Shown here: positions 35,261 to 44,249 of the stretch, one piece after another
How the letters are laid out: every line of letters begins with the position of its first letter
Position numbering within the stretch: the first letter of the stretch is position 1
Assembly: GCF_012940005.1 (NCBI RefSeq)
Contig: NZ_SPMX01000057.1
Coordinates: forward strand, 1 to 46,938
DNA length: 46,938 nt
From: Candidatus Accumulibacter contiguus
Lineage (GTDB): Bacteria > Pseudomonadota > Gammaproteobacteria > Burkholderiales > Rhodocyclaceae
Direction: 5' to 3'
Translations under genes and position numbers: made by a program
Notes under the pieces: model-generated
What the model was told of the DNA's origin: nothing
The model's input: the letters and a program-made list of their open reading frames with translations, nothing else
Databases searched by the model: none

Positions 35261-37957
35261 ATGCCATTGCTTCAGATCGTCCGTAGCAAGCTGCAGCGTC
35301 CCCGGGCTAGCGCCGACTTCGTCGCGCGCAGCGAGTTGCTGGCAAGGCTCGAAGCCGGCAGCAACCGGCCACTGACCCTGCTGGTGGCGCCGGCGGGTTA
35401 TGGCAAGACGGCGCTGGTCACGCACTGGCTCGCTGGCCGTGACGGCCTGGCTGCCTGGCTCTCGCTCGACCACGAAGACAGCGATCCGATCGTGTTCATC
35501 CGCTACTTCGCTGCCGCATTGCGCACGGCGATTCCCGATGCCTGCGCCGAGACGCTGGCGTATCTCGATGCCGGGCAGCAAACCTCGCTGACGGTGCTTG
35601 CCGGCAGTCTGAGCAACGATCTGGCAGCGCTGCCGGTGCCGCTGGTGATGGTTCTTGACGATTATCACCGCATCGACTCGCCGCCGATCCATGCCCTGCT
35701 CGATCGCCTGCTGGTGCATCCGGCGAGTGCTCTGCATCTGCTGGTGATCGCCCGCCATGATCCTCCCTTGTCGCTGGGCGCGCTGCGCGTTCGCGAGGAG
35801 ATGAACGAAATCCGGATGCGCGACCTGCAATTTGGCGAGCGTGAAGCGGCGATCCTGCTCGAACGCTGCGTCGGACGTACCGTTTCGGCAGCCGCATTGG
35901 CCAGACTGCAGGCCTGTAGCGAGGGCTGGCCGGTTGGTGTTCGCCTGGCGGCACTGGCGCTGCGAAACAAGGATGCGGCTGACGCGCTAGGCACGCTCGA
36001 GCACTGCTTCAGCGGCAGTACGCGCGAGGTCGAGCAGTATTTCTGCGAGGAAGTGCTGGCCCAACAGAGCGTGCTCGCGCGTGACTGCCTGCTCAGGACC
36101 TCGATTCTCGACCGTTTCTGCGCGTCCTTGTGCGACGCCGTTCTCGGGGACGCTTGCAACGGGCATGCCTTGATGCAATTGGTGTCGAGCGGCGCGCTGC
36201 TCTGCATTCCCATCGACGATCGCCTGGAGTGGTATCGCCATCAGCGTCTGTTCCGGGAGTTTCTGCAGCGGCAGCTCGAACTGCAGTATCCGGCGAGCGA
36301 GATTGCCGCACTGCATCGACGCGCGGCCGCCTGGTTCGAAACGCAGGATTTTCTCGAAGAAGCGATTCCGCATGCGCTGGCCGCAAGCGGCGCGGTAGCG
36401 GCGGGACATCTCCTGGCGCGCAATCGCCAGCGACTTCTCAACCAGGAGCAGCGACAACGGCTCGAACGCTGTCTGCGTCTGTTGCCGCCCGATAGCGTCG
36501 CGGAAGACCCCGAATTGCTGCTGCTGAAGGCCTGGCTGATGTATCACCAGGGGCGGCATGTCGAGACCCCGGCGGTTCTCGACCGGATCGAGGTGTTGCT
36601 CGAAAGCGCTGCCAGCGGTCTGCCCGCTGTCTCTGCGCTCTGTGGCAGTGTGTCGGCGCTGCGCAGTCTGCAGTATTACCTCGAAGGGCGGGCCGACATG
36701 GCTATCCGCTCTGCCGAGCAGGCGCTGCAGGGCTTACCGATCGACTGCGCGCAAGCCCGCGTGCTGGCCCAGGCGGTCATCGCCGGAACCCGGCAAATGC
36801 GCGGTGACCTGGTCGGCGCGCGCCAGAGTCTGCATGCAGCGCTGGCGCGGGCGTCGGGACCGATCGACGTTTCCCAGGCGCCGCTGCTCGCGACCTTGTG
36901 CTTCATCGACTGGATGGCTGCCGATCTGTCGGCATTGCAGTGGACGGCCAACCAGCACTACCCGCTCGGCGAGGATCGTTTGCGCAGCGCAGGCAGCCCG
37001 GTACTCGGGCGCTACTTTCATGGTCTGGTCCAGTATCAGCGCAACGATCTGGCGCTGGCGGAGGCCACGCTGCTGCCGGCGCTCGCCCCGCAGCCGGTGC
37101 CGCGCCCCGGCTACCGAACCGAAGTCACCTTCGTTCTGGCGGCAGTCTATCAGGCGCTCGGCCAGACCAACCTGGCACGCGAGATCGTCGATACGGTCTG
37201 CGAGCACTTGCAGCGCAATGGCGATTCGCCGGCCTTGTTTCGTGCGCAAGCCTGCCAGGCCGACCTGGCGCTGCGCCAGGGGCGCTCCGACGCGGCTCGG
37301 GAATGGGCGCGCAACTTCGATCCCGGTCCGGTCCAGTTCGTCTACCGCTTCAGCAACGCTCCCCACCTGACGCTGGCCCGCGTGTGGATTGCCGAGGGAA
37401 GCGTCGACAGCCACGAGCAGGCGGCTCGCCTCCTGCAGTTGCTGGAAACCGAGATGATGGCCAGGCACAACGTCCGTTTCCTGATCGAGGTCGTGGCGCT
37501 GCAGGCGCTGCTGCGGCATCTCCAGGGCGAGGAGACGGTCGCGTGCGAACTGCTGGGCCGTGCCGTCGCGCTGGCGCAACCTGGTGGCTTCATCCGGCTG
37601 TTCGTCGATCTTGGGCAAGATCTCGTGCCGCCGCTGAAACGACTGCAAACCGGCCAGAGCATTGTCGGCAACGCGGCCAATGCCCGCTACGTCGGGCAGA
37701 TTCTCGCCGCGTTCAACGACGACTGGCTGGTCAGTGCGGGTCGCCAGCAGGTGGGTGCAGACCTTACCCGCCGTGAACTGAAGATCCTCAAACTGCTCGC
37801 AGTCCGGTTGAGCAACATCGAGATTTCGGAGGAGTTGTGCATTTCACGGGCGACGGTCAAGCGGCATACCCAGAACATCTATCGCAAGCTGCGCGCATCG
37901 AGCCGCCGCGAAGCCGTCTTCAGAGCCAGAACACTCAACCTACTCGCAGACGCTTGA
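35261..37957 (+). CDS. MalT-type LuxR-family transcriptional regulator
   Basis: The 898-residue protein is a large signal-transducing ATPase (STAND) regulator. Its N-terminal NTPase domain has Walker A LLVAPAGYGKTALVTHWLAG (about residues 40-59) and Walker B PLVMVLDDYHRID; the middle 400 residues are helical repeats of TPR/MalT type; and the end is a LuxR-type DNA-binding domain (LTRRELKILKLL, then ISRATVKRHTQNIYRKL). MalT itself binds maltotriose, but the ligand here cannot be predicted. It lies 128 bases after the acyltransferase gene and 233 bases before parA, and might regulate that unit or the phosphate genes. Confidence 0.92.
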   Translation: MPLLQIVRSKLQRPRASADFVARSELLARLEAGSNRPLTLLVAPAGYGKTALVTHWLAGRDGLAAWLSLDHEDSDPIVFIRYFAAALRTAIPDACAETLAYLDAGQQTSLTVLAGSLSNDLAALPVPLVMVLDDYHRIDSPPIHALLDRLLVHPASALHLLVIARHDPPLSLGALRVREEMNEIRMRDLQFGEREAAILLERCVGRTVSAAALARLQACSEGWPVGVRLAALALRNKDAADALGTLEHCFSGSTREVEQYFCEEVLAQQSVLARDCLLRTSILDRFCASLCDAVLGDACNGHALMQLVSSGALLCIPIDDRLEWYRHQRLFREFLQRQLELQYPASEIAALHRRAAAWFETQDFLEEAIPHALAASGAVAAGHLLARNRQRLLNQEQRQRLERCLRLLPPDSVAEDPELLLLKAWLMYHQGRHVETPAVLDRIEVLLESAASGLPAVSALCGSVSALRSLQYYLEGRADMAIRSAEQALQGLPIDCAQARVLAQAVIAGTRQMRGDLVGARQSLHAALARASGPIDVSQAPLLATLCFIDWMAADLSALQWTANQHYPLGEDRLRSAGSPVLGRYFHGLVQYQRNDLALAEATLLPALAPQPVPRPGYRTEVTFVLAAVYQALGQTNLAREIVDTVCEHLQRNGDSPALFRAQACQADLALRQGRSDAAREWARNFDPGPVQFVYRFSNAPHLTLARVWIAEGSVDSHEQAARLLQLLETEMMARHNVRFLIEVVALQALLRHLQGEETVACELLGRAVALAQPGGFIRLFVDLGQDLVPPLKRLQTGQSIVGNAANARYVGQILAAFNDDWLVSAGRQQVGADLTRRELKILKLLAVRLSNIEISEELCISRATVKRHTQNIYRKLRASSRREAVFRARTLNLLADA

Positions 37958-38035
37958 CCACCTTCTTGCCGAGGCTGCCGACATCGGGTTTTGCAAGTGC
38001 AGCTCGCCCGCCATGGCTGCTGGTGAGTGAATTTT

Positions 38036-38108
38036 CCTTGATCGTAATCAAGGACAGCGGGCCATTTTGCAAAAAATGGCCCATTTCATGGCCCATTGCG
38101 GGCCCATT
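38036..38108. promoter_or_regulatory. Operator or centromere-like array upstream of parA
   Basis: Three kinds of symmetric or repeated site are packed into 73 bases: an 18-bp inverted repeat CCTTGAT-CGTA-ATCAAGG (38036-38053); a perfect 10-bp inverted repeat GGGCCATTTT-GCAA-AAAATGGCCC (38059-38082); and three direct copies of GGCCCATT at 38078, 38090 and 38101, spaced 12 and 11 bases apart, about one helical turn. Type Ib partition cassettes carry repeated operator/centromere boxes at this position, bound by a ribbon-helix-helix protein; the downstream pair is of this kind. The function is inferred. Confidence 0.55.
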
Positions 38109-38113
38109 TCGGC

Positions 38114-38141
38114 TTGTCCGTTTTTCTCGCGATGGCATAAT
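38114..38141 (+). promoter_or_regulatory. Predicted parA promoter
   Basis: TTGTCC (38114-38119) and CATAAT (38136-38141) are spaced 16 bases apart, 49 bases before the parA ATG and directly after the GGCCCATT repeats, so a protein bound there would cover or abut the -35 site. Confidence 0.45.
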
Positions 38142-38190
38142 CGTGGGTTATGCGGATCACCATAAGAATGTTCCTTCAAAGGTACGATAA

Positions 38191-38858
38191 ATGTCTTTGT
38201 CATTAGGTCGGGTGATTGCTGTGGTTTCACAAAAGGGGGGGGGCTGGCAAAACCACGGTCGCCATGCAGCTCGGGGGGGGGGTTTCATGCCATTGGCGCT
38301 TCGGTGCTGCTGGTCGACCTGGACCCGCAGGAAAGCGCGCTGCGCTGGGCAGAATCGGCGCCCTTGCTCGACTCGGACCTGCAACTCGATGTCCGCAAGA
38401 TGTCTGGCCTGGAATTGATCAAGCATGTCGTGGAACTGCAGAGCGAGGCCGATTATGTCGTTCTCGACACCCCACCGTCGATCTACCATCCGTCTACGCT
38501 GGCCGCGCTGGCGGTGGCGCATCTGGCGATCGTACCGGCAGTACCGAGTCCAACCGACCTGTGGTCGACACGGGCGGTCGAGCGGCTGATTCTCAATCGC
38601 ATGGAGCAAAGCCATCGCCTGCACGGCTGCATTCTCCCCAACCGTGTGCAAAACACCGCTCTGGCTACGGATGTACTTGAACTGTTGCATGAATTTACCT
38701 TACCCATCCTCGATGCTATGCTCTGCCAGCGCAACGCGTATGCGCAAAGTGCGGTGGTCGGCGCGTCGGTTTTTCAACTGGCCTCTGGCGCCGACGCAGC
38801 GCAGGATGAAGTTCGCAAGCTGATCGCAGCCGTTCTTAAACAATTGGGAGAAAACTGA
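38191..38858 (+). CDS. ParA/ParF-like partition ATPase (two frame breaks)
   Basis: The gene reads through only if one G is removed from each of two runs, 38235-38243 and 38273-38282; then a 221-residue ParA-type ATPase results. Walker A is KGGAGKTT with the signature first Lys (residues 15-22), followed by LLVDLDPQESALRW, VVLDTPPS and VPAVPSPTDLWS. It has no N-terminal helix-turn-helix, which with its small size fits the type Ib (ParF/delta) class and also orphan ParAs that position cargos. AAAGG stands eight bases before ATG. The stop overlaps the next start as TGATG, so the two proteins are made together. The breaks are most likely homopolymer errors. Confidence 0.85.
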
Positions 38859-39502
38859 TGACTACACCCACACGTACTACCAGCAGCAACAAGACCGCTT
38901 TGCGCGCCAGTCTCAAGAAGGAAGACGAATCGCTCGCCGAGCGTCTGGTGGCAACCGACGTTGCGCTGGTCGTCCCGCCGGAGCCCGAAGCCGCTGTTGC
39001 GCCAGTAAGCCAGGCCGCAGCGGCGCCGCTGAGCAAGCCTGCAGACGAGGGGAAGCCGGCGGCCGTTGTGGAAGCTCCCGGCAAAGCCGCGAAAAATACG
39101 GCACCGGCAAAAACCAAGTCGGCAAAAGGAGCCGCTGCGGCGGCAAAGGCCAAGCCGGGCAGCAAGAAAGCCGCCGCCGCGGCCAAGCCGCAGGCCAAGG
39201 TCGAGGCCGCCGCCGAGGCAGGCAAGAAGACTGCCGGGCTGGAGGAAGCGCTGGAAAAGATCGAAAAGACGGCCAAGGAAAAGGGCGACAAACTCGTCCG
39301 TTACACGGTGGAATTGCTCAAGAGCGAAGAGGCGGCCATCGAGGCTGTGCGTGCCGAGTTGTCGAAGGCCGCGGGTTGGGCGGCCAGCAAGTCGGACATC
39401 CTGCGCGCCGCGGTGCGTCTGTTTGCCGAGCAGAAGATGGAGCAGATGAAAGCCTTGCTCGCCGCGGTGAGCGTTCCCGAGAAAGGCAAGAAGAAGGACT
39501 GA
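38858..39502 (+). CDS. Ribbon-helix-helix protein with H1-like Lys/Ala-rich region
   Basis: The 214-residue protein has three parts. Residues 1-50 are a polar, basic tail (NKTALRASLKKEDESLAERL). Residues 60-125 are Ala/Lys/Pro-rich, for example GAAAAAKAKPGSKKAAAAAK, like bacterial histone-H1-like proteins such as AlgP or the DNA-binding tail of PhaM. Residues 144-193 (KLVRYTVELLKSEEAAIEAV, then SKSDILRAAVRLFAEQ) fit a ribbon-helix-helix fold: a basic strand, a helix, a turn and a helix starting S-D-I-L-R. This would suit the centromere-binding partner of a type Ib ParA, with a flexible basic tail to stimulate the ATPase. Its start overlaps the parA stop. The RHH call is by pattern, not by profile search; a phasin-like helical protein is the alternative. 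Confidence 0.6.
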   Translation: MTTPTRTTSSNKTALRASLKKEDESLAERLVATDVALVVPPEPEAAVAPVSQAAAAPLSKPADEGKPAAVVEAPGKAAKNTAPAKTKSAKGAAAAAKAKPGSKKAAAAAKPQAKVEAAAEAGKKTAGLEEALEKIEKTAKEKGDKLVRYTVELLKSEEAAIEAVRAELSKAAGWAASKSDILRAAVRLFAEQKMEQMKALLAAVSVPEKGKKKD

Positions 39503-39650
39503 TCGACTGATCGAGCGTGGGGGGAATGGATCGTCCGAAGTTCCTTTCCCGCTGCGGCCAGCCTGCGCGATGCTGAGCCATTGCCCGAGTGGGTTTGTGA
39601 ATAAGTGAATAAGTGGTGCCGACAATCGATCGGCGTGTTTTGACTGAGAA

Positions 39651-39666
39651 CTGCTCCGACGAGCAG
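39651..39666. promoter_or_regulatory. Inverted repeat before the first DUF47 gene
   Basis: CTGCTC-CGAC-GAGCAG is a perfect 6-bp inverted repeat 18 bases before the start codon; a TTGACT (39640-39645) precedes it. Just upstream, GTGAATAA occurs twice in tandem (39597-39612). These may be promoter and operator of the phosphate cluster, but no known box is matched. Confidence 0.3.
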
Positions 39667-39684
39667 ATAACCAAGGGAGGTCGT

Positions 39685-40325
39685 ATGTTTAGTAGTCTGA
39701 TGCCGCAACGCCGGGAATTTTTTTGAACTTCTCGCGGCGCATTCCGAAAAGGTCGCTGCCGGGGCCAATGCAACCTTGCGCCTGATCAATGGCCTGGGCG
39801 ATGGCAGTGGCAACGCTGCGGCGCTGATCGCGGAAGTCAATCTCAACGAAAAAAAATGCCGATGAGATCAAGGCCAAGGTGATTGGTCGCCTGCACCAAT
39901 CCTTTACCACGCCGATCAACCGGGATCAGATCCATTCGCTGATCAGCGATCTCGACATGACGCTCAATGTCCTGCAATCGGTGGCCAACGCCATCGACAT
40001 GTACGGCATCAAGCAGTCGACGGTCGAAGCCCGCGAAATGGCTTCCTTGAGTGCCGATGCCTGTATGCGCCTCAACCGTGCAGTCGCGGCTTTGGGCGAC
40101 AAGGCGCGTGGTGAGGAAACACTGAACCTGTGCAAGGAAATCGAGGAAATCGAAACCAAGGCCGACCGGGTACAGCAGAAGGCGATCACCGAGCTTTTCA
40201 AGGAGGGGGCCAACGTCTGGCAGACGATGAAGATGCGGGAGTTCTACTCTCTGCAGGAATCCGTCCTCGATTGCTGCCAGGACGCGGCCAAAATGATCGA
40301 AGAGATCCTGATCGAGAACTCCTGA
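39685..40325 (+). CDS. DUF47 (PhoU-like) phosphate transport regulator, copy 1 (two frame breaks)
   Basis: DUF47 proteins are all-helical PhoU relatives that accompany and modulate PiT phosphate transporters. Removing one T from the run 39718-39724 and one A from 39849-39856 yields one protein of 212 residues: MFSSLMPQRREFFELLAAHS, then GANATLRLINGLGDG, NEKNADEIKAKVIGRLHQSF, TTPINRDQIHSLISDLD, and FYSLQESVLDCCQDAAKMIE. The PINR/D and H-x-S-F elements are typical of the family. AAGGGAGG lies four bases before ATG. Without the corrections the gene ends after 13 codons, so the 148-residue fragment from 39879 is what a gene finder would show. It precedes its transporter by 13 bases. Confidence 0.85.
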
Positions 40326-40338
40326 GAGGTAGCGCAAA

Positions 40339-41353
40339 ATGGAAGGCCTAAATATGAGCATCTGGACGCTGGGGCTGCTGATTGCAGTGGCTCTGGCGTT
40401 CGACTTCATGAACGGGTTTCATGACGGTGCCAACTCGATCTCGACGATTGTCGCCACCGGTGCCCTGACCCCCAAGCAGGCGGTGCTGTTCGCCGCATTC
40501 TTCAACTTCGCCGCACTGTGGGTATTCCAGCTCAAGGTGGCGGCGACGATCGGCAAGGGCACCGTCGACCCGAGTTTCGTCGATTATTACGTGATCTTCG
40601 GGGCTCTGGTCGGGGCGCTCGCCTGGAACATCATCACCTGGTATTACGGCATTCCGTCCTCGTCCTCGCACGCGCTGGTCGGTGGCCTGGTCGGTGCAAC
40701 GGTTGCCAAGGCCGGTTCGGGCGCGCCGATCGTCTGGGAGGGTTTCGGCAAGATCCTTGCCTTCATCATCATTTCGCCGCTGGTCGGGGTGATCATCGGC
40801 GGTCTGCTGATGGTGCTGGTATCGTGGATCTTCCGCAACAAGTCGCCGTATCAGGCCGGGAAATACTTCAAGAGCGGGCAATTGATCGCCGCCGCCGCGT
40901 ACAGCCTGGGCCACGGCGGCAACGATGCGCAAAAGACGATCGGCATCATCTGGCTGTTGCTGATCACTGCCGGCGTGGCAACCAAGGACGTGGCGACGTT
41001 GCCGACCTGGGTGATCTACTCGTGCTACTTCGCGATCGCCTGGGGGAACCTATCTGGGTGGCTGGCGCATCGTCAAGACGATGGGCACCAAGATCACCAA
41101 GCTCAATGCGGTCAGCGGTTCGTGCGCCTCGATGGGTGGTGCGATCACGCTCGGGCTGGCGACGCTCGGCGGCATTCCGGTGTCGACGACGCATACCATC
41201 ACCGGCGCGATCATCGGTGTCGGGGCAGCCACCGACGTCAAGGCGGTGCGCTGGGCGATCACCATGAACCTGCTCGTCGCCTGGGTGCTGACGATTCCTG
41301 CCGCCGGGCTGATTGCGGCGATCTTCTGGTACATAGGGACCAAGTTCCTGTAA
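40339..41353 (+). CDS. PiT-family inorganic phosphate transporter 1 (one frame break)
   Basis: PiT proteins import metal-phosphate with protons (low affinity, high capacity). The frame breaks at 41042-41048, where removing one base turns AWGNLSGW into AWGTYLGGWRIVKTMGTK and gives 337 residues with about ten membrane helices. Both internal signatures are canonical: FMNGFHDGANSISTIVATGA near the start and LGHGGNDAQKTIGIIW in the second half. ATG 40339 has GAGAGG upstream; ATG 40354 (MSIWTLGLL) with GGAAGG is as plausible. It sits between two DUF47 genes. In polyphosphate accumulators such carriers handle the large phosphate fluxes. Confidence 0.9.
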
Positions 41354-41437: not shown

Positions 41438-42074
41438 ATGTTACCCAAGCGAACCCAGTTTTTTGAGCTCCTCGAGGCACACAGCGAGCGGGTTCTGGCC
41501 GGTGCCAATTCCATGCTGCGCCTGATCAACGACCTCGGGGTCAGCGGGCAGGAGGTTGCCGCGCTGATCCAGGAAGTCAACATGAACGAAGCGAGTGCGG
41601 ACCAGATCAAGGCCGACCTGCTGCTGATGCTGCACAAGTCCTTCGTCACCCCGCTCAACCGTGACCAGGTCTACGAGCTGACGCTGGACATCGACCGGAT
41701 CATGAATGCGGTGCAGGATGTCGCGCAGGCGGTCGGCATCTACCACATCCATGAGGCCAATGCCGAGTCACGTGAACTCGCGTCGATGGCCGTCGATGCC
41801 TGCTCACGCCTGACGCGCGCCATCGCCGCCCTGAAGAAGAATGAGCGTAGCGAAGAGACCGTCAACCTCTGTGTCGAAATCGAGCGTATCGAAGAGAAAT
41901 CCGATGGGGTCATGCAGCGGGCGATCAAGGCCTTGTATGCGAACGAAGGAAATGAGCAGGCGGCCTTGCGGGCGCTGGCCTTGCAAGAATTCTATGCCTT
42001 GCAGGAAAAAAGTGCTTCGCACTTGCAAGGCCTCGGCCCAGATGGTCGAAGAGATCCTGCTCCAGAATGCCTGA
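41438..42074 (+). CDS. DUF47 (PhoU-like) phosphate transport regulator, copy 2 (one frame break)
   Basis: This is a close paralogue of copy 1: MLPKRTQFFELLEAHSERVL, GANSMLRLINDLG, NEASADQIKADLLLMLHKSF, TPLNRDQVYELTLDID. The frame breaks in six A at 42006-42011; with five, the end reads ALQEKVLRTCKASAQMVEEI and stops at 42074, giving 211 residues. Copies 1 and 2 align over their whole length, so they arose by duplication. The gene lies 84 bases after the first transporter and ends before a strong hairpin. Confidence 0.87.
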
Positions 42075-42097
42075 GACCTGACCTGCTCCGCGCGCGC

Positions 42098-42119
42098 AAC
42101 GCCCCGGCAACGGGGCGTT
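42098..42119 (+). terminator. Rho-independent terminator-like hairpin
   Basis: AACGCCCCG-GCAA-CGGGGCGTT forms a perfect 9-bp stem with a GNRA-type loop, followed by T-C-C-T-T-T, 23 bases after the DUF47 copy 2 stop. Confidence 0.65.
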
Positions 42120-42177
42120 TCCTTTGGCAATCGCCAGATTTCTTCACCTGCTTCAGCCGAGAACGCGGAGAACGCCC

Positions 42178-42858
42178 ATGTTACCCAGCAACCCGATGGC
42201 CGCCTTGTTCGGCAAGTCGCCGTTCAAACCGCTGCCGCAACACATGCGCATCGTGATCGAATGCGTCGAAGAAGTGCAGCCCTTGTTTCAGGCCCTGATT
42301 GACGACGATCAGGAGCAGCTTGAAGAACGCAAGAACCGCATCTTTGTCAAGGAGCGTGAGGCGGACGCGATGCGGAACGAGCTCTGTGAGCATTTGCCGA
42401 GAAGCATGCGCCAGGCGGCGGGCCGGCAGGATCTGCTCGAACTCCTGGCGGCGCAGGATGCCATTGCCGACACTGCGCAGGACATCGCCGGTTTGCTGGT
42501 GGAACGTAGGATGGAGGTATACCCGGGCATGGCCGAACCGCTGATGCGACTCGTGGCCCGCTGCATCGATACCTGCCGGCAGGCGCACATCGTCGTCGAG
42601 AAGCTTGGCGAGCTGCAGGAGGCCGGATTCCGTGGTCGCGAGGCCAGCCAGGTGGATGAGATGCTTGCTGAACTGGGGAACATGGAATCCGACACCGATT
42701 TGATGGGAATGGCGCTGGCCCGAGCCTTGTTCTCGGAGGAGGACAAGCTCAAGCCGGTGTCGGTGATGTTCTGGTACCAGTTGATCCAGTGGGTTGGCAA
42801 TCTGGCCGATTACGCGGAGAAGGTCGGAGATCGGCTGCGTTTGCTGATCACCCGCTGA
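42178..42858 (+). CDS. DUF47/TIGR00153-type phosphate transport regulator, copy 3
   Basis: The 226-residue helical protein belongs to the TIGR00153 branch of DUF47: MAALFGKSPFKPLPQHM, ECVEEVQPLFQALIDDD, RIFVKEREADAMRNELCEHL, QDAIADTAQDIAGLLVERR, and FWYQLIQWVGNLADYAEKVG. It is clearly diverged from copies 1 and 2 and stands just before the second transporter, so it is likely that transporter's partner. ATG 42178 has GCGGAG upstream; a longer in-frame start at 42124 would run through the terminator stem's neighbourhood and is less likely. No frame break is seen. Confidence 0.88.
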   Translation: MLPSNPMAALFGKSPFKPLPQHMRIVIECVEEVQPLFQALIDDDQEQLEERKNRIFVKEREADAMRNELCEHLPRSMRQAAGRQDLLELLAAQDAIADTAQDIAGLLVERRMEVYPGMAEPLMRLVARCIDTCRQAHIVVEKLGELQEAGFRGREASQVDEMLAELGNMESDTDLMGMALARALFSEEDKLKPVSVMFWYQLIQWVGNLADYAEKVGDRLRLLITR

Positions 42859-42980: not shown

Positions 42981-44249
42981 ATGGAAATCATCGATCAGTA
43001 TCAAACCTTGTTTTATGTCCTGGCCCTCGCCGGTGGTCTGTACATGACCTGGGGAATCGGCGCCAACGGCGTCGCCAGTGCCATGGGCACTTCAGTTGGT
43101 TCGGGTGCGATCACCGTCAGGCAGGCGCTCGTCCTGGCCGCGATCATGGAGTTCTGCGGTGCTTATCTGGCCGGCGGAGAGGTGGCCGACACGATTTCGA
43201 CAGGCATCATCGACGGCAGGCTCTTCGAACCGGTGCCGCATCTGTTGGTGCTCGGCATGATCGGGGCGCTGCTGGCGGCGGGGGTCTGGCTGATGGTCGC
43301 CAGCATGCGCGGCTGGCCAGTGGCGACGACGCATGCCCTCGTCGGCGCCGTGTGCGGGGTTGGCGTTGCGGCCCTCGGCGTGCATGCGGTGCATTGGGAA
43401 ATGATGGGCGAAATCGTTGCTAGCTGGTTCATCTCGCCGGTCCTGGGCGGTACGGTCGCCCTGCTGCTGACCATGAGCATCCGCAAGCTGATTTTCAATA
43501 CCGTCAACCCGATCGCCCGGGCGCGCAAGTGGGGTCCGATGTATGTCTTCCTGGTCGGCTGGATGGTTTCTCTGGTCACCATCAGCAAGGGCCTCAAGCA
43601 TCTGGACATTCATTTCGGCCTGTTCTCGGGTCAGATCCTTGCGATCGTGATCGGCGTCGTCCTGGCTCTTGCCGCCCGGCTGATGATGAACCGCATGCAA
43701 TTCGATGAGCATCTCGACAGGGCTTTTCAGCACGCCAGCGTCGAGAGGCTGTTCATTCCGCAGATGGTGTTCACCGGCGCGGCGATGGCCTACGCGCATG
43801 GTTCAAACGAAGTGGCCATTGGGATTGGCCCGATGGCTGCGGTGATTCAGATCCTGGTGACCAGGGAGGTGTCTGCCATCTCGCCAATCACGCCCTTCCT
43901 GTTGTTGATCGGCAGCTTCGGCATGGTTGCCGGTCTGGCCACCTACGGTTACAAGGTGATGGCCACCCTGGGCCACAAGATTACCGAGTTGACGCCAACC
44001 CGAGCCTATTGCGCCACCGTTGCCACTGCGTTCGTGACGGTGGCCGCTTCCGGCCTGGGCCTGCCGGTGTCCAGCACGCATATCGCGGTTGGTGCGGTGA
44101 TGGGTGTCGGCATTGCCCGCGGTATCGGCGCCCTGGACCTGCGTGTGGTCGGTGGCATCATCGTTTCCTGGTTCATTACCGTTCCGGTCGGGGCTCTTCT
44201 GGGGGCCAGCATTTTCCATCTCCTGAGAGCAGTATTTTCCATAGAATGA
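42981..44249 (+). CDS. PiT-family transporter 2 with atypical signatures
   Basis: The 422-residue protein has about eleven predicted membrane helices and the overall plan of PiT carriers: MTWGIGANGVASAMGTSVGS near the start, AYAHGSNEVAIGIGPMAAV in the second half, and GLPVSSTHIAVGAVMGVG. The usual signatures are G-A-N-D-V-A-N and H-G-S/A-N-D-V-A-N; here the first Asp is Gly and the second is Glu, and the following Asn residues are Ser and Ile. These Asp residues are central to transport in studied PiT proteins, so substrate or mechanism may differ. It follows DUF47 copy 3 by 122 bases, a gap with no gene. Frame and length are intact. Confidence 0.88.
   Translation: MEIIDQYQTLFYVLALAGGLYMTWGIGANGVASAMGTSVGSGAITVRQALVLAAIMEFCGAYLAGGEVADTISTGIIDGRLFEPVPHLLVLGMIGALLAAGVWLMVASMRGWPVATTHALVGAVCGVGVAALGVHAVHWEMMGEIVASWFISPVLGGTVALLLTMSIRKLIFNTVNPIARARKWGPMYVFLVGWMVSLVTISKGLKHLDIHFGLFSGQILAIVIGVVLALAARLMMNRMQFDEHLDRAFQHASVERLFIPQMVFTGAAMAYAHGSNEVAIGIGPMAAVIQILVTREVSAISPITPFLLLIGSFGMVAGLATYGYKVMATLGHKITELTPTRAYCATVATAFVTVAASGLGLPVSSTHIAVGAVMGVGIARGIGALDLRVVGGIIVSWFITVPVGALLGASIFHLLRAVFSIE

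Follow-up and report, generated by a model that had tools for sequence, protein, structure and literature searches.

The window, a stretch of 46,938 nucleotides from Candidatus Accumulibacter contiguus, a member of a genus known for phosphate removal, carries a gene for a ParA-type ATPase followed directly by a gene for a putative adaptor protein, and this pair is very probably a chromosomal ParA-adaptor module. Homologues of the adaptor, mostly without a ParA, are clearly tied to polyphosphate genes across the order. We propose, rating the chances at a little below even, that the pair may tether polyphosphate granules to the nucleoid. A wider and more doubtful proposal is that the pair would position these granules at the expense of ATP, and that the homologues adjoining ppk1, pst, CHAD and PPK2 genes would be undescribed granule-nucleoid linkers, some of which would have joined a ParA repeatedly, either in an operon or divergently.

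The contig is part of a 5.02-Mb genome whose nearest named relatives are Accumulibacter. The genes described here, from parA to the second PiT carrier, lie on the forward strand. The parA gene occupies positions 38191-38858 and the adaptor gene, an intact open reading frame of 214 codons, positions 38858-39502; the parA stop and the adaptor start overlap by one base at 38858, which bears out the TGATG coupling described in the first-pass annotation. A terminator-like stem (39616-39636, a consensus match only) lies between the adaptor gene and a DUF47 (PhoU_div) gene (39685-40325), which is frame-broken in the window and was recognized by similarity to the other DUF47 genes of relatives. There follow a first PiT phosphate carrier gene (40339-41353, split between two frames in the window), two more DUF47 genes (41438-42858), and a second PiT carrier gene (42981-44249). 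The 221-residue ParA of the first-pass annotation is unreadable in the window as printed, its gene being broken around the G runs at 38235-38243 and 38273-38282: the span of 668 nt is no multiple of three, and the open reading frame in the ParA frame starts at 38304, leaving an open core of 184 amino acids (38304-38858). The size itself stands, with intact ParAs of 219-222 residues in relatives. These two homopolymer runs, together with those at 39718-39724 and 39849-39856, coincide with the broken parA and DUF47 genes. The next genes after the pair, DUF47 and the first PiT, are frame-broken too, so we infer that base-calling or other sequencing error is a likelier cause of the parA frame breaks than gene decay; uncorrected base-calling errors are probably present in the contig. 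A transposase-like open frame, recognized by eye, lies at the contig end (46611-46937) and is a possible cause of the contig break, and in a close relative (G018, locus L065, 10192-12118) the first PiT gene is apparently split by about 770 bp of intervening sequence.

The ParAs of Accumulibacter relatives share the Walker box QKGGAGKTT. A profile built from 13 intact Accumulibacter ParAs has ParF-type chains as its best PDB matches, near full length (5u1g and 4dzz, E 6e-16), and all 13 match the NCBIfam partition ATPase family NF041546, the first member scoring 177.9 bits, 2 bits under the cut-off of 180. Type Ib ParAs have about 200-230 amino acids and no N-terminal HTH, and the relatives conform to this, the window copy being frame-broken. 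Judged from sequence, the window ATPase is small and of the ParF type, with a deviant Walker box and no HTH.

Across genera the adaptor consists of an N-terminal motif, a variable Lys/Ala/Pro tract, and a C-terminal domain. The motif is conserved in cross-genus comparison, where it centres on ALRASLKKEDESLAERL; in the window it lies around KTALRASLKKEDESLAERL (38858-38962) and is a putative ParA contact. The H1-like tract (38972-39295) differs among relatives, and the Lys/Ala-rich centre noted earlier is confirmed by the composition of residues 39-146 (32% A, 19% K, 10% P), with a net charge of +7; the whole window adaptor has a net charge of +11. Pfam recognizes no domain in it, phasin included, at E≤0.1. 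The C-terminal domain (39290-39436) has the consensus VVRDSFSMPKSE...SKSEVLRAGL... and is found in 17 of 18 Accumulibacter loci. Its reading as a ribbon-helix-helix (RHH) fold is backed by weak sequence matches and not by structure prediction. NCBIfam gives a weak ParD-antitoxin match to the window adaptor (E 0.0031), ParD/RHH models weakly match 15 of 20 cross-genus members (best E 0.00037; the window member has 19.2 bits against a cut-off of 21), and RHH antitoxins of the ParD type fill the first five places in a PDB sequence search with the adaptor domain, with E from 0.0075 to 0.11. Two AlphaFold runs on this end gave low-confidence models without any strand (mean pLDDT 68.8 and 68.5), the first with a long helix at the expected strand position, and none of 34 Foldseek matches to the second model reached E≤0.001. 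We regard the C-terminal domain as a probable RHH. One adaptor, that of C. aalborgensis (L045, from 10001), has the motif and the tract and then ends without the RHH-like domain, for which a profile search of the 20-kb locus gave no match.

Pair adaptors were used to train a model of the N-terminal motif, which picks out 29 of 116 adaptor genes; 28 of these 29 have a ParA in their 1.5-kb flanks, as against 10 of the 87 motif-less adaptors. Five of the 28 flanking ParAs were classed as not upstream, probably as a result of open reading frame starts placed too early. Outside the training set a ParA accompanies 13 of 14 motif-bearing adaptors, several of which are same-genus relatives of training sequences. 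Six motif-less adaptors (L101, L105, L131, L135, L137, and L183) have a divergent, more distant ParA beside them, so the association of adaptor and ParA may have arisen more than once. ParF is stimulated by a motif resembling an arginine finger in the flexible tail of ParG (PMC7308502 and PMC5393062, both in excerpt), and by analogy the N-terminal motif of the adaptor could stimulate its ATPase in the manner of the ParG tail.

Upstream of parA, the sequence contains both of the perfect inverted repeats listed in the first-pass annotation (38035-38054, with 8-nt arms, and 38059-38082, with 10-nt arms) and all three copies of GGCCCATT (at 38078, 38090 and 38101, spaced by 12 and 11 bp). The second repeat, a tandem TGGCCC at 38077-38094, and the third GGCCCATT copy at 38101 make up a candidate operator array (38059-38110, assigned to neither strand). 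The promoter claimed just beyond it also holds up: a sigma-70-like TTGTCC-N16-CATAAT lies at 38114-38141 on the forward strand, promoter-like sites number 2 in 37900-39800 against a shuffle mean of 0.3, and 16 of 18 Accumulibacter loci have a similar promoter. The pattern TGGCCC-N6-TGGCCC occurs once in the window, with 0.01 expected. Of 18 distinct Accumulibacter loci, 17 have it in the corresponding position with its sites 12 bp apart; there it lies at -111 to -126 relative to the approximate start codon and precedes the -10 by 58-72 bp. Iterated upstream sites of the kind found in type Ib systems, here sequence sites with putative binding, are thus present in 17 of the 18. The exception, L037 (C. 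appositus), is also without the MalT-like gene and the first DUF47-PiT pair. The array is most likely an autoregulatory operator. The C. aalborgensis locus keeps it in the absence of the RHH-like end, which weakens both the reading of the array by that end and the autoregulation step of our proposal, and leaves the genomic linkage unaffected; either the end was recently lost there, or the array is not read by that end alone. In other genera the word near the start is a different one, GTAATAC or GTATTAC, in 7 of 10 loci viewed by eye.

A perfect dyad, TTGAT-N4-ATCAA, lies at 38038-38051 (assigned to neither strand) and is the only match to TTGAYNNNNRTCAA in the window, with 0.13 expected. Of the 18 Accumulibacter loci, 14 have the related pattern TTGAY-N4-RTCAN, at 88-91 bp upstream of the -10 or, in the case of L036, at 101 bp. 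We take the dyad to be a box of the FNR/CRP-family type, and its near-constant position suggests control by an FNR/CRP-type regulator; oxygen control of this sort would suit the aerobic/anaerobic polyphosphate cycle.

The alternative that survives best, which we nevertheless consider unlikely, is that the pair is a domesticated plasmid-type (ParF-ParG-like) partition cassette, in which the array would be a centromere and the system would act on DNA, either a chromosomal region or plasmids with like sites. Gene order, ATPase type, RHH-like end, and iterated sites are all as in ParFG-parH (PMC7308502, in excerpt), the best PDB matches of the ATPase are ParF-type chains, and each of the six genomes searched has a single full array, located at the pair (in G125 with 2 mismatches). 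The published ParG, however, has 76 residues, with no room for a tract (PMC5393062, in excerpt), and close relatives of the pair are chromosomal and not confined to plasmids; confinement to plasmids is what the first-pass annotation had named as telling against its own reading. Relatives at 48-97% occur in assembled genomes of several genera, including eight single-contig genomes of 3.2-5.2 Mb, where a type Ib cassette would be expected on a plasmid. Plasmid matches to the ParA amount to 1926 records, all with less than 60% identity (37.9% for the first listed), and those to the adaptor to nine records with 36-48.5% identity. Each of nine genomes examined has one canonical ParB (TIGR00180), located away from the pair, unlike a canonical ParABS arrangement, and in eight single-contig genomes the pair is anywhere between 20 kb and 2.2 Mb away from dnaA (at most 50 kb in three, at least 0.38 Mb in five). 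Origin-linked chromosome segregation as a rule was rejected on these two grounds. Phage origin was dismissed after one peptide pattern, compared with 19 stretches, found no relative.

Every one of the 18 Accumulibacter loci has DUF47 and PiT genes within about 1 kb downstream of the pair (those of the second DUF47-PiT pair in the case of L037), and the phosphate synteny suggested by the first-pass annotation therefore stands within the genus. It does not extend far beyond it, since pair-type adaptors of other genera are mostly without phosphate neighbours, and the pair is there mostly near sulfhydrylase- and pabB-like genes (named by eye). Taken alone the synteny is weak, because the upstream YlqF, acyltransferase, and MalT-like genes, which have no phosphate role, are equally conserved in Accumulibacter, and because of the terminator-like stem before DUF47, which argues against the phosphate genes being in the same operon as the pair; genus-level synteny was accordingly rejected as proof of a phosphate link. 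A panel of PPK1, PPK2, PstS, PstC/A, CYTH-CHAD, SixA, PiT, and DUF47 genes, without PPX, PhoU, PhoB/R, or phasins, was used for further comparison, and the neighbour counts rest on a crude gene finder. Three of 13 genera (Accumulibacter, g36, and g35) have a motif-bearing adaptor with a panel gene no more than two genes away, only a modest excess over chance (P 0.026); with Accumulibacter set aside the count is 2 of 12 (P 0.12). In g36 a PPK2 gene is found at +2 in four loci, two of them Pfam-confirmed, and in g35 a motif-bearing adaptor has a PPK2 neighbour; a pair-type ParA was not found in the g35 genome, which is 82% complete.

A cross-genus profile of the adaptor domain has matches in 75 of the 199 genomes of the family. 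Many further homologues have an IKTGRPxK C-terminal end and no N-terminal motif. The KTGRP-type and pair-type domains are homologous by hhalign (99.6%, or 97.8% with an Accumulibacter-only profile), and comparison of the KTGRP-type domain with Pfam and PDB profiles gave no recognition of an RHH. Near slots were defined as those within two genes of the adaptor gene, and far slots as those four to five (family) or four to six (outside) genes away; the random control comprised 20 random 20-kb stretches at round coordinates in family genomes, with 383 genes and 5 positives in two clusters. Within the family, panel genes occupy 26 of 296 near slots and 8 of 219 far slots (76 adaptor genes, 79 loci; P 0.02), a count that omits L121, L130, L141, and L146 (no adaptor gene model), the Accumulibacter pair loci, and the matches in G130, G161, and G186:C56 (no wide flanks). 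Compared with the random control (5/383), the near slots are again enriched (P 3e-6). This pattern was noticed first and then tested on the same family, and the count was hence repeated outside it.

The KTGRP-type profile has matches in 59 of 260 genomes sampled from the order, and 40 of the 57 matching places outside the family were taken, representing 31 genera and 17 families. Panel genes are present in 28 of 149 near slots as against 4 of 138 far slots (Fisher P 2e-5) or 5 of 383 genes of the random control (Fisher P 3e-12), these P values being guides only, as slots are not independent. Positives number 15 of 40 loci (P 7e-5 with the far-slot rate as null), from 12 of 31 genera and 8 of 17 families, and the other 25 loci have no panel gene within two genes. 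PPK1 is within two genes of an adaptor homologue in four of the families outside, as well as in g7 of the home family (L123). Pfam checks of sampled neighbours returned PPK1, PPK2, CYTH-CHAD, PiT, PBP_like_2 (read as PstS), and histidine phosphatase (read as SixA). Neighbours that were not counted include PhoU in L178 and L180 and PPX in L193, two of the three Pfam-checked.

A second alternative, which we consider less probable still than a partition cassette, is that the adaptors are phosphate-linked transcription factors or nucleoid proteins whose DNA binding the ParA would modulate, with no movement of granules. It accords with a conserved array at the pair's own promoter, with the RHH-like end, and with the pst and ppk genes nearby; the KTGRP tails, which we take to be like AT-hook cores, would also fit. 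The Accumulibacter adaptor shows no sign of a regulon, however: five weaker array-like sites were found in four of the six genomes searched, four within long open reading frames and one, in G018, overlapping the start of a gene, and a one-mismatch pattern in G000 gave 64 sites against 62 in a backward control. A regulon acting through the TGGCCC array was rejected on this basis. The ParA-linked motif also suggests a dynamic partner and in this respect speaks against a regulator.

The least probable of the three is that the pair has PHA granules as its cargo and is an equivalent of PhaM/PhaF powered by ATP. A PHA synthase is encoded in 193 of 199 family genomes (E≤1e-50), a frequency at which its presence was rejected as a discriminator. 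In g44, KTGRP-type adaptors have phasin genes two genes away (Pfam 2e-15 and 8e-15), one g62 locus has a weak phasin match (0.0013) and a second g62 locus none, and an H1-like region is common to AlgP and PhaF (PMC9239181, in excerpt). Against this, a Pfam scan of ten open reading frames of the window found no PHA gene, and it is ppk1, pst, CHAD, SixA, and PPK2 that recur as neighbours, in a comparison that is unequal as the panel is without phasins.

We return to polyphosphate granules as the proposed cargo. In the mechanism that we propose, the RHH-like end would dimerise, bind the TGGCCC array, and set the expression of its own genes, and the Lys/Ala tract would bind polyphosphate, DNA, or both. 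The adaptor would couple polyphosphate granules to a nucleoid ParA gradient, with the result that granules would be spaced and partitioned, and those homologues that adjoin ppk1, pst, and CHAD genes without a ParA would act more simply, tethering granules to the nucleoid in the manner proposed for AlgP. The ParF-type matches, conserved array, motif-ParA coupling, PiT/DUF47 synteny, homologue linkage, and AlgP precedent support this reading; the small number of genera with linkage, the conservation of unrelated upstream genes, the C. aalborgensis adaptor, the low adaptor charge, and the 25 negative loci of 40 weaken it.

Several known systems resemble the pair in part. ParF-ParG of plasmid TP228 (type Ib) has a small HTH-less ATPase, a downstream adaptor gene, a flexible N-terminal region, an RHH-like end, and iterated sites, whereas the pair is chromosomal, has a Lys/Ala tract of about 110 residues, and has order-wide homologues tied to polyphosphate genes. 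McdA-McdB, which positions carboxysomes, likewise combines a ParA-type ATPase with an adaptor, and the pair resembles it in being encoded near genes of the presumed cargo; the pair differs in its candidate DNA operator and H1-like tract, and its cargo is presumed from genomic linkage and the ParA-associated motif. McdB is not known to have an RHH end. AlgP of Pseudomonas aeruginosa shares the Lys/Ala/Pro-rich H1-like tract and the polyphosphate context; it localises to polyphosphate granules, whose even spacing depends on it, and differs in having a putative helical N-domain, KPAA repeats at its C-terminus, and a charge of +55 as against +11 for the window adaptor (PMC9239181, in excerpt). A 2025 review, in its excerpted text, names no ParA partner for AlgP (PMC13052382). 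PhaM and PhaF have a histone-like DNA-binding tract that ties PHA granules to the nucleoid (PMC13052382, in excerpt); unlike them, the window adaptor has no Pfam phasin match and has a ParA partner.

The same review, again in excerpt, describes the need for ATP in the localisation of PHB and polyphosphate granules as still open, and its table lists no spacing ATPase for them (PMC13052382). The word polyphosphate is absent from a paper on one bacterium's ParA/MinD ATPases (PMC10241942), and among the open-licence papers listed by literature searches, the titles and abstract openings viewed mention no ParA or RHH system for polyphosphate granules. The pair is a concrete candidate for the spacing ATPase of polyphosphate granules, and the order-wide linkage to polyphosphate genes yields, for other bacteria, an immediate set of candidate granule proteins.

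Two minor observations concern the homologues. KTGRP-type genes are found beside an rpiA-like gene (recognized by eye) in L099, L104, L108, L122, L124, L156, L178, and L180, and in several of these loci pst or phoU genes come next. Accumulibacter also has a second, shorter protein with the adaptor domain, encoded immediately 3' of a PstS-like gene (L097, 5246-5584; L098, 4738-5076; L136, 5917-6324).
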